Source: a virus. Taken from it: DNA of 24,258 nucleotides. A model generated the notes under the pieces. The model was not told the DNA's origin. It searched no databases and worked only from the letters and a program-made list of their open reading frames with translations. Positions 1,095-23,260 of this stretch are shown one piece after another. Position 1 is the stretch's first letter, and the number at the start of each line of letters is the position of its first letter. The stretch spans positions 1 to 24,258 of IMG/VR virus record IMGVR_UViG_3300030085_002659; one strand, 5' to 3'. The position numbers and the translations under genes are program-made.

Positions 1095-1151
1095 TAAAGA
1101 TAACAAAAAAAGGGGACTTTTCCAAGCCCCCTATGTTAAATTTATGTTAAA
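1095..1151 (-). promoter_or_regulatory. Class A promoter with TTTAACA repeats
   Basis: On the minus strand: TTTAACA (1145-1151), 4 bases, TTTAACA (1134-1140), 7 bases, CTTG (1123-1126), 20 bases, TATCTTTA (1095-1102). Spacing is identical to six other sites in the window. The spacer between the two core boxes is also the terminator hairpin of the upstream gene. Confidence 0.75.
1105..1131 (-). terminator. Rho-independent terminator inside a promoter
   Basis: In minus-strand RNA, GGGGCTT pairs with AAGTCCCC (one bulged base) around a GGAA loop and is followed by seven U. It lies just after the stop of the 67-residue gene and would end the heat-shock gene transcript. The same DNA carries the core of the next promoter. 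Confidence 0.75.
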
Positions 1152-1157
1152 TTTTTG

Positions 1158-1361
1158 CTATAACTCTTCGTACTCTACATCCGTAACTTCTTGTAAAAAA
1201 TAGTAAAAACCATCACTTCCTCTGAGTACTAAGTCGCAGTTAAGATGTTCTTTCCATGTAGAGATAATTGGTCTTTCTTGTTCATGGATTTTTCTTATGA
1301 TTAAGTATAATGTATCATTGTGTTGTAACTTCTTGTATCTAAACCACGAGTATGCAGACAT
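1158..1361 (-). CDS. Unknown protein, 67 aa
   Basis: No family is recognised. The protein has a basic, aromatic N-terminus (SWFRYKKLQ) and an acidic C-terminus (EVTDVEYEEL). It starts 5 bases after the stop of the small heat-shock gene, so the two probably share one mRNA, and it is followed directly by a terminator hairpin. That position supports it being a real gene and the last of its operon. Confidence 0.6.
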   Translation of the reverse strand: MSAYSWFRYKKLQHNDTLYLIIRKIHEQERPIISTWKEHLNCDLVLRGSDGFYYFLQEVTDVEYEEL

Positions 1362-1366
1362 CTAAC

Positions 1367-1717
1367 CTATTTAACTTTTACTGTAATGTTTTTTGCTTTT
1401 CTATCTTCATACTTTGGAATCTCAATATTAAGTAAACCATCTTTACAGATAGCTGATGTAGAACCTAAATCAAAAGACTCGTGAATCTTATACTTTCTTT
1501 CAAGTTTACGATTCTCTTTTTCTGCTTTGATTAAAAGGAATCTATCCTCAACCTTAACATCGACATCCTTGTTTGATAAACCTGGCACTTCTAACTCAAT
1601 CTTTAAGACATCATCCTTAATATAAGATGTAGGTGATGAAATACTTCTTGTGTCATTGTCCCAATTCAGCATTGAATCAAACACAGTATCAAAATTTGAA
1701 TAAAATAAATTTGTCAT
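1367..1717 (-). CDS. Small heat-shock protein (Hsp20/alpha-crystallin)
   Basis: Small heat-shock proteins are ATP-independent holdases that bind unfolding proteins and form oligomers. This 116-residue protein has the crystallin domain at about 31-102: VPGL (44-47), the strand FLLIKAEKE (60-68), and the diagnostic A-x-x-x-G-L pattern in AICKDGLLNIEIPK (89-102). ITV near the C-terminus (111-113) may serve as the I-x-V anchor. The N-terminal arm is short. Phage-borne Hsp20 genes are known in T4-like marine phages, where they may help particle assembly or host stress. Upstream there is a TTTG box at about 1758, but only a poor second box, so its promoter is uncertain; a TGACA-N3-TGTCA palindrome lies about 90 bases upstream of the start. 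Confidence 0.9.
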   Translation of the reverse strand: MTNLFYSNFDTVFDSMLNWDNDTRSISSPTSYIKDDVLKIELEVPGLSNKDVDVKVEDRFLLIKAEKENRKLERKYKIHESFDLGSTSAICKDGLLNIEIPKYEDRKAKNITVKVK

Positions 1718-1805
1718 AATAATCCTTTTTTAATTAATATCTTTGATTATTATAGTACCAAATCCGTACCATCGAGTGTTTTATGAAATTATGTCAGTAT
1801 TTGTA

Positions 1806-1818
1806 TGACATTTTGTCA
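1806..1818. promoter_or_regulatory. Palindrome TGACA-TTT-TGTCA, possible operator
   Basis: This perfect 13-base inverted repeat overlaps the stop codon of the 128-residue gene and lies upstream of the heat-shock gene. The same arms with a 3-base centre occur at 23269, 23344 and (one mismatch) 23431. A dimeric DNA-binding protein is the simplest explanation, but no such protein is identified here. Confidence 0.45.
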
Positions 1819-2202
1819 GTTTAGTGACAAAGGTGACCCATGTTTTATGACACGATATTGTCTTGTATCTTCAAATGAATCCTCAAGCTCTAAGATTAGA
1901 CCATCCATAACAAACATTTTGATTGTGTCGTCCATCATTTTATGATTGGGACAAGTAATCCAAAGATGTTCTAAATCAAGAATTACATTTATCTTAGTTG
2001 TTATGTGTTGTGATTGTTCTTCAAAAGCGTCTTCTTCAAACATAGGAGTGTCTTCGAGGTCCTCTTCATACTCCTCACCGAACTCACCATAAAGATAATC
2101 GTGTAGATAATAGACCTTAGTCATATCATCTAAACTCATGAAGTAATTGTATTCTGCTTCATCCCACGCCATGATATCCCCTTTACTATAAGTATCTCTC
2201 AT
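1816..2202 (-). CDS. Unknown acidic protein, 128 aa
   Basis: No family is recognised. The middle is strikingly acidic (residues about 39-62, rich in E and D), followed by a mixed alpha/beta region with ITTKINVILDLEHLWITC. The first ATG overlaps the stop of the upstream gene as ATGA, which favours this start by translational coupling; a second ATG at residue 11 is possible. It ends inside a TGACA-N3-TGTCA palindrome. Confidence 0.6.
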   Translation of the reverse strand: MRDTYSKGDIMAWDEAEYNYFMSLDDMTKVYYLHDYLYGEFGEEYEEDLEDTPMFEEDAFEEQSQHITTKINVILDLEHLWITCPNHKMMDDTIKMFVMDGLILELEDSFEDTRQYRVIKHGSPLSLN

Positions 2203-2630
2203 GGTTTATCTTTCCACAATTTATTTAGATATTCTAAACCCTCTATGTTTATAATGGTATTATCAGCTTTTACAAAATCTAAAAATATATCGATTATTGT
2301 AATTTTAAACTCGCTGGTAAACTTATCCTTCATCTGGTTTAGTTTAGCGCCCATGTTAACAACATAGTTTGTATTAGGCGCCTGTTCTGAGTCTATAAGT
2401 GAGTGGATTTTATTTTTAGCAATTGTGAAGTAAGGTTCTTTCTTTGCTACGATAACATCACGAACTGATGCAATATAAGTTTCTAAGTCTGACTTATCAC
2501 CAAGGGTATCATCAGCCAACATATCAAATATATCACTTGAAGCAAACTCCAAGTAATACTTGTCTTTGTATCGATAGTTCATTAGACTATCGTCATAGAA
2601 GTCTTGTATGTCTAAATGTTTATCGTTCAC
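2199..2630 (-). CDS. Unknown protein, 143 aa
   Basis: No family is recognised. It appears mostly helical and lacks membrane segments or metal motifs. The longest reading begins with GTG; an ATG at residue 17 (MNYRYKDKYY) is an alternative start. It sits 6 bases after the upstream gene and its stop overlaps the next start as ATGA, so it is part of a compact operon of small genes. Confidence 0.6.
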   Translation of the reverse strand: MNDKHLDIQDFYDDSLMNYRYKDKYYLEFASSDIFDMLADDTLGDKSDLETYIASVRDVIVAKKEPYFTIAKNKIHSLIDSEQAPNTNYVVNMGAKLNQMKDKFTSEFKITIIDIFLDFVKADNTIINIEGLEYLNKLWKDKP

Positions 2631-2636
2631 TAACGA

Positions 2637-2939
2637 TTATGTTTGTAATCCTAATCTATATTTTTTCTTTGCCAAATCAACGGCTTCAAAACAAGTCATT
2701 CCTAACTTATTTAATTCAGCCATTGTTACTTCAAATTCTTTTCCACCGATTTGTATGTATCCTACCTTAGTAGCACTATGTGGATGTTCTGAAAAACTAA
2801 ATTGTTCGTGAATTCTGAAGTCTAAAGAGTTATATAGATTTCCATATCTTTTTTGATTTCGTTCCTGTCTTTCTTTAGGAACACCAAATGAGTGGTTCAC
2901 ATTACCATGTCTCATTTTTACTTTATTATACTTTTTCAT
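2637..2939 (-). CDS. Unknown basic protein, 100 aa
   Basis: No family is recognised. The N-terminal 35 residues are very basic (MKKYNKVKMRHGNVNHSFG, then KERQERNQKRYG), followed by a more hydrophobic part with VGYIQIGGKEFEVTMAEL. Nucleic-acid binding is possible from charge alone. The 54 bases upstream hold no convincing promoter, only an A/T-rich spacer. Confidence 0.6.
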   Translation of the reverse strand: MKKYNKVKMRHGNVNHSFGVPKERQERNQKRYGNLYNSLDFRIHEQFSFSEHPHSATKVGYIQIGGKEFEVTMAELNKLGMTCFEAVDLAKKKYRLGLQT

Positions 2940-22415: not shown

Positions 22416-22501
22416 TACCGATGGGCGGGCTCGAACCGCCACGGACATTACTGCCCAAGGGATTTTAAGTCCCTCATGTCTACCAATTCCATCACATCGG
22501 C
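22416..22501 (-). tRNA. tRNA-Leu (TAA)
   Basis: An 86-base cloverleaf with long variable arm, anticodon loop TTAAAAT (anticodon TAA), T-loop TTCGAGC and acceptor GCCGATG/CATCGGT. No CCA is encoded. It is the last tRNA of the cluster; a weak CCCC/GGGG hairpin (22385-22399) follows. Confidence 0.95.
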
Positions 22502-22588
22502 TTACAAAAATTTCGTGGACATCAAAGATACAAATACTATATATACTACTACATAGGTATATGCTAAAAGAAATCCAGCTAAATTTAG

Positions 22589-22662
22589 TGTTCCCAATAG
22601 GATTTGAACCTATGACCTACTGATTATGAGTCAGTTGCTCTAACCATCTGAGCTATGAGAAC
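22589..22662 (-). tRNA. tRNA with CAT anticodon (Met, or Ile if lysidine-modified)
   Basis: Acceptor GTTCTCA/TGGGAAC, anticodon loop CTCATAA, T-loop TTCAAAT. The CAT anticodon may read AUG or, if C34 is changed to lysidine, AUA; sequence alone does not settle this. No CCA is encoded. Confidence 0.93.
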
Positions 22663-22685
22663 CAAGTACATCAAAGAACTCTTAG

Positions 22686-22759
22686 TGACCCCACAAGGAC
22701 TCGAACCTTGAACCCTCAGCTTAGAAGGCTGATGCTCTATCCAATTGAGCTATGGGGCC
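22686..22759 (-). tRNA. tRNA-Arg (TCT)
   Basis: Acceptor GGCCCCA/TGGGGTC, anticodon loop CTTCTAA (anticodon TCT), T-loop TTCGAGT. No CCA is encoded. It is the first tRNA after the cluster's promoter. It reads AGA/AGG codons, common in A/T-rich phage genes. Confidence 0.95.
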
Positions 22760-22779
22760 ATATCACTAACTTTACAAAG

Positions 22780-22836
22780 TAAAGATACACAAAATATTCC
22801 CAAATTCCAAACTTCCAATGTTAAATAATTGTTAAA
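22780..22836 (-). promoter_or_regulatory. Class A promoter for the tRNA cluster
   Basis: TTTAACA (22830-22836), 4 bases, TTTAACA (22819-22825), 7 bases, TTTG (22808-22811), 20 bases, TATCTTTA (22780-22787), minus strand. RNA would start about 14 bases before tRNA-Arg. Confidence 0.8.
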
Positions 22837-22849
22837 TCATCAGAAGTAA

Positions 22850-23199
22850 GGCAAAATAAAGTTGGCTAACTCAGTAGAATACTGGCTCAGAGGGGACTTT
22901 CCCTATGGTAAAAAACCGACCCCGGTATGAAAACGACTCACAGGCCGTTGTAACTTGCTGATACTCAACGGTTTACACGAAAATACCCGCCCCCCTCGCT
23001 CGGCGACATGCGTCGCCTCGCTGGGTTGGTCCACTTCCCCTACCTCATCTGGCTTATTTAGCTAAAATTATTTCAGCTTACCTACTGGCTGGCAGGCTTG
23101 GTGTGGGTGTCCCTACCTCTGTATCCCTATATACGGGCTATTTTAGCTATTTTATTTTTATGTCACCGCAAGAAATTTAGCGTAGGGGCAGTCTTTCCC
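22850..23199 (-). ncRNA. Candidate large structured non-coding RNA
   Basis: No reading frame of useful length crosses this stretch, which is much more G/C-rich than its surroundings and starts right after a strong class A promoter. Several helices are visible in minus-strand RNA: CCCCTAC (23184-23190) can pair with an internal GTAGGGG; TAGCTAAAAT (23140-23149) pairs perfectly with ATTTTAGCTA (23059-23068); GGCGAC-GCAT-GTCGCC (23002-23017); CCGTTG/CAACGG (22945-22971); CAGTA-TTC-TACTG near the 3' end. It resembles none of tmRNA, RNase P or SRP RNA that I could test by motif. Its place next to a phage tRNA cluster recalls the large phage RNAs GOLLD and ROOL, but no identity is claimed. The 3' end is approximate. 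Confidence 0.6.
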
Positions 23200-23203
23200 A
23201 ATA

Positions 23204-23260
23204 TAAAGATAAAAAAATTAACCGAGAATGCCAAATTTTTAATGTTAAGTTTATGTTAAA
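23204..23260 (-). promoter_or_regulatory. Class A promoter for the structured RNA
   Basis: TTTAACA (23254-23260), 4 bases, CTTAACA (23243-23249), 7 bases, TTTG (23232-23235), 20 bases, TATCTTTA (23204-23211), minus strand. Transcription would start near 23199, at a GGGAAAG. Three TGTTRATAA repeats lie further upstream. Confidence 0.8.

Follow-up and report, generated by a model that had tools for sequence, protein, structure and literature searches.

A MotA box replaces the -35 element in the middle promoters of phage T4 (MotA/AsiA), and direct repeats are the binding sites of response regulators of the OmpR/PhoB family. For one member of this family, PhoP of Mycobacterium tuberculosis, 7-bp repeats and a strict 4-bp spacer are required (PMC4832192). 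Closer to the phages considered here, a study of Riemerella anatipestifer (Flavobacteriales) gives TTTAACA as the most conserved nucleotides of the PhoP motif obtained by DAP-seq, reports EMSA at several promoters, and describes genes with the motif as moving both up and down in a phoP mutant (PMC9603813). The corresponding two-component system, PhoPR, is reported to be strongly conserved throughout the Flavobacteriaceae (PMC5399024).

The IMG/VR virus record IMGVR_UViG_3300030085_002659 comprises 61,441 bases with a GC content of 34%, and the window analysed here is its bases 1-24258 (24,258 nucleotides). The whole record contains ten pairs of the repeat, all on the minus strand and in a single 57-base frame, each lying 7 bases before YTTGG. 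When scanned with the exact pattern TTTAACA-N4-YTTAACA-N7-YTTG-N20-TATCTTTA, the record yields seven copies, six in the window (starting at 1095, 6472, 8677, 9152, 22780 and 23204) and one outside it, at 33736; two further copies beyond the window carry a variant -7 box, TACTTTAG at 31216 and GATATTAG at 33022. The first-pass annotation had listed seven window sites, all ending in TATCTTTA, and this is so for six of them, the site at 19308-19364 having its repeats and TTTG in register with a different -7 box. Its remaining description of the sites holds, from the 57-base frame and the repeat period of 11 bp to the two window copies with CTTAACA as inner repeat and the single copy with CTTG (Table 1). 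YTTG is present at -33 in all ten sites. Eight of the ten precede a predicted ORF by 7-112 bases, measured from the expected start site, and the other two lie before a tRNA cluster and an ORF-free stretch, respectively.

Table 1. Predicted class A promoters in the window and selected features that follow them.
Feature	Position in window	Strand	Description
Class A promoter	1095..1151	-	TTTAACA pair, CTTG, TATCTTTA; next ORF 509-979 (HAD/PNKP-type phosphatase)
AAA (AAA_5) ATPase gene	5174..6430	-	418 aa
Class A promoter	6472..6528	-	serves AAA ATPase gene
711-aa protein gene	6524..8659	-	
Class A promoter	8677..8733	-	inner repeat CTTAACA; serves 711-aa gene
Class A promoter	9152..9208	-	serves small genes 8890-9141 and 8718-8912
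Class A promoter	19308..19364	-	serves gene 18902-19288; -7 box TACTTTAG
Class A promoter	22780..22836	-	serves tRNA-Arg, tRNA-Met, tRNA-Leu cluster (22415-22759)
ORF-free stretch	22837..23203	-	~370 nt, conserved
Class A promoter	23204..23260	-	inner repeat CTTAACA; without TGTAA; before the conserved non-coding stretch

The arrangement is far from what chance produces, as 300 dinucleotide shuffles of the record gave a mean of 0.02 pairs and a maximum of 1, and no shuffled pair was followed by YTTG. It also recurs in related phages. The pattern TTTAACANNNNYTTAACATTNNNNNTTTGG matches at least 119 stretches of IMG/VR contigs, and its reversed counterpart matches none. Among 84,980 species genomes it is found in nine stretches, too few for the strict pattern to have come from a regulon of host chromosomes; looser host boxes do exist. 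At least one of the nine, L130, has the complete phage-type promoter, TGTAA included, and could be phage sequence within a MAG. With a somewhat looser pattern, 23 virus records of 41-266 kb have 1-21 sites each against a control of zero, and the sites are confined to one strand in every one of these records except G011. The relatives that carry the promoter class come from the sea and the rumen. T4-like members include the 181-kb G012, where PHROG matches identify a major head protein, tail sheath, baseplate wedge and DNA polymerase. Among named phages, those with the nearest major head proteins include Flavobacterium phage immuto and Rhodothermus phage RM378. The cultured phages examined do not share the pair: it is absent from immuto even when one mismatch is allowed, and Bacteroides SJC03 and DAC19 phages have only one-mismatch matches, at chance level. 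The closest named major head protein (57%) and DNA polymerase (49% identity), beside those of Bacteroidota phages, belong to Microcystis phage Mel-JY01 (PP395634.1), whose host assignment may be worth a check. In L040, L042, L044, L064 and G011 (L047), the promoters that bear the repeats lack TGTAA and have a -7 box that is either TATGTTTG-like or of another form, a hint that use of the box is not confined to a single phage lineage.

Across 85 non-redundant sites the order is an A-rich flank, TTTAACA, four G-free bases, YTTAACATT, TTTGG, a 20-base spacing from TTTG to TAYnTTWR, and then TGTAA 4-5 bases after the -7 box, where those positions that were set by the search pattern are not independent evidence of conservation. 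The TGTAA element had been overlooked earlier, and each base of its GTAA is present at 80-86% (about 85%) of these sites. In six phage genomes, successive copies of TTAACA lie 11 bp apart in 93 pairs, and every other spacing up to 60 bp occurs 0-4 times. Scanning the six genomes without using the repeats revealed two kinds of promoter, one bearing the repeats and one a plain TTTGG/TATATTWG, and GTAA at the 20-bp spacing accompanies 41 of 73 repeat-bearing sites versus 9 of 112 plain ones. TGTAA is lacking at most sites of the 266-kb jumbo relative G003. The lower half had been assigned to the known Bacteroidota promoter, and it does match the sigma-ABfr type, with TTTG at -33 and a -7 box 20 bp away, in register, whose last base is often A. 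As for the upper half, two half-sites that are separated by one helical turn and keep a constant distance to the TTTG box are what would be expected of an activator-like contact, as had been proposed. That this is a real class of phage promoters with an activator-type operator seems to us very nearly certain.

It had also been stated that no described promoter was known to have this upstream element, and this is not supported. TTTAACA is identical to the core of a Bacteroidota PhoP motif as printed for R. anatipestifer, a comparison with that core and not with the full logo (PMC9603813), and the two 7-bp direct repeats with their 4-bp spacer and 11-bp period have the form of OmpR/PhoB-family operators (PMC4832192).

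Even between divergent phages, orthologous genes have retained a class A promoter: that of the AAA ATPase is present in 5 of the 6 relatives examined, and those of the 711-aa protein, for which Pfam and PHROG searches gave no match, and of an LPD29-domain family in all six genomes. The pair lies upstream of none of 50 structural-block genes as compared with 43 of 248 others (p 3e-4), and TATTTAT shows the opposite distribution, at 35 of 50 structural genes versus 62 of 248 others (p 3e-9). A TATTTATA(TA) motif precedes structural genes in G012, G004, G009 and G006, and resembles the T4 late promoter TATAAATA on the opposite strand. There are thus three separable sequence classes, comprising PhoP-box promoters, plain sigma-ABfr promoters and a T4-late-like motif at structural genes, and the genes of class A would belong to an early or middle class. 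Between the promoter at 23204 and that of the tRNAs, the ORF-free stretch has a 98.7% identical counterpart in L028 (G007), while L026, L074, L090, L092, L124 and L182 share its 3' part at 70-85% identity; an Rfam search returned no match at E<=1 and its folding alone is unremarkable (z -1.2). It is possibly a new phage non-coding RNA. Genome G000 contains a GroEL gene (PHROG match) and a likely GroES-type gene, at 27194-28792 and 29975-30289 on the minus strand.

Who, then, supplies the protein that would bind the repeats? The OmpR-type DNA-binding domain (PF00486) was found in none of 20 phage records, several of them possibly incomplete, and this absence argues against a phage-encoded regulator of the OmpR type. 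The domain is present in all five hosts tested, which have two OmpR-type regulators in common, one resembling RegX3, MtrA and PhoP-type proteins of known structure; the exact box was not found upstream of the candidate regulator genes in these five genomes. A phage activator of some other fold could also bind the repeats, defining a middle class like that of T4 MotA, with the likeness to PhoP due to convergence or mimicry. The near phage-specificity of the full architecture (repeats, TTTGG and TGTAA) is in keeping with this, as is the majority of proteins in these phages that have no family assignment. Nevertheless, we regard it as unlikely, given the missing OmpR-type domain, ten small G012 proteins among which no DNA-binding regulator was recognised, and the occurrence of the same box at an equal distance on host chromosomes. 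A gp55-like sigma factor had been suspected at G012 140932-141651, but neither PHROGs nor Pfam supported this and the proposal was dropped.

On host chromosomes the box precedes a small number of conserved genes. Across 100 Flavobacteriaceae genomes, the repeat by itself occurs modestly more often than its reversed control, and in 300 such genomes a box lies 30-32 nt before a -7 box in 50 matches from 49 genomes, and 19-21 nt before it in 55 genomes, with controls of zero in both cases. Likely hosts contain a matching promoter-proximal box, the longer distance being that of the phage promoters and the shorter one a helical turn nearer. Among the loci read, almost all of the 30-32 nt set are upstream of one gene for a ~47-aa exported peptide, and most of the 19-21 nt set precede a ~470-aa lipoprotein gene that is transcribed divergently from an ABC-F gene. 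In some genomes the peptide gene has the shorter box distance, so that either spacing is used. The peptide itself (MKTKKYLIAIAIFGGMLFTA...) is conserved in L221-L250, L269, L271, L277 and L280, all Flavobacteriaceae; its gene has a PhoP-like box at 31 or 20 nt from the -7 box, on the upstream side, and no TTG at -33. None of the 30 longer-distance host promoters read has TTG at -33, or 19-21 nt before the -7 box, and these promoters plausibly depend on an activator for this reason.

The host promoters also bear on the suggestion that no dedicated activator is involved and that the repeats are a UP element, contacted by both alpha C-terminal domains of the host's RNA polymerase. The site just above -33, the 11-bp period and the A/T-rich flanks would suit two UP subsites. 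A UP element should, however, be made of A/T tracts that contain no specific G/C and should keep a fixed position above a -33 box that is itself occupied, and this is not what is seen. The 7-mers do not differ from one another and all strict copies contain a C, unlike A-tracts, an argument that is partly circular as most searches required the C, and TTTAACA is the demonstrated motif of a response regulator (PMC9603813). Moreover, the UP-element reading is disfavoured because host boxes also lie one turn closer, over -33, where alphaCTD would clash with sigma region 4; a one-turn shift on the same peptide gene is compatible with an activator but not with alphaCTD. We consider a UP element improbable.

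On the evidence of sequence, the phage probably turns on its genes by means of a two-component switch that belongs to the host, and we think it reasonably likely that class A promoters are activated by a PhoP-type response regulator of the host, the binder most likely being PhoP; binding, activation and timing, as well as PhoP over another OmpR-type host regulator, are what we infer. Each site would combine a sigma-ABfr promoter (YTTG at -33 and a TAnnTTT[A/G]-like -7 box) with a tandem OmpR/PhoB-family operator immediately above it. The regulator would occupy TTTAACA-N4-TTTAACA as a head-to-tail dimer, upstream of the -33 box and with both half-sites facing the same side of the helix, and might then recruit or stabilise host RNA polymerase. 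In this way the host regulator could drive non-structural phage genes such as those for the AAA ATPase, its 711-aa neighbour, phosphatases, tRNAs and small proteins. The same regulator might instead repress or delay phage genes through the box, as Riemerella PhoP works in both directions (PMC9603813). We find this very hard to credit, since the operator leaves the -33 and -7 boxes uncovered, being placed upstream of both, and the phages retain it at a fixed phase on many promoters.

The host is presumably a Bacteroidota of the Flavobacteriaceae type. It is tempting to go further and propose that, in a widespread group of Bacteroidota phages, both T4-like and larger, an entire temporal class of genes answers to a single response regulator of the host. 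Phage expression would then track the signalling state of the host, and loss or retuning of the regulator would alter sensitivity to the phage. This broader claim we hold tentatively, at a little short of an even chance. Gene timing in large Bacteroidota phages is little known, and promoter classes name a host factor that can be tested.

Like T4 middle promoters, class A is a phage promoter class marked by an extra activator box, but it retains its -33 box and has the added box further upstream. With sigma-ABfr promoters it shares TTTG near -33 and TAnnTTTG at -7 (PMC7366714), differing in its added upstream operator, in the TGTAA of most T4-like members and in a last -7 base that is often A. 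The Riemerella PhoP motif has the same core, TTTAACA, an OmpR-family regulator and a Flavobacteriales host; the genes described for it are chromosomal ones (PMC9603813), whereas phage promoters, the 57-bp frame and the 11-bp pair are features of the system here. The closest precedent for a phage is cyanophage S-PM2d, which is T4-like and has promoters bound by the host PhoBR, of the OmpR/PhoB family (PMC10976474), with pstS of cyanophage P-SSM2 a further host-PhoBR case cited there. Predicted Pho boxes have been called unreliable without binding tests (PMC10976474), and the same caution holds for class A promoters. The cyanophages differ in that they infect a different host phylum and have few phosphate-responsive genes and degenerate boxes (PMC10976474), while the strict box found here is on 5-21 promoters in most large relatives, its binding being predicted. 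The use of host two-component regulators by phages, so far a matter of limited numbers of cyanophage genes, would thereby be extended to a promoter class common to many phages of another phylum. That a phage should use a host regulator is known from the cyanophages; what is new here is how many promoters are involved, their fixed architecture and the phylum of the hosts.
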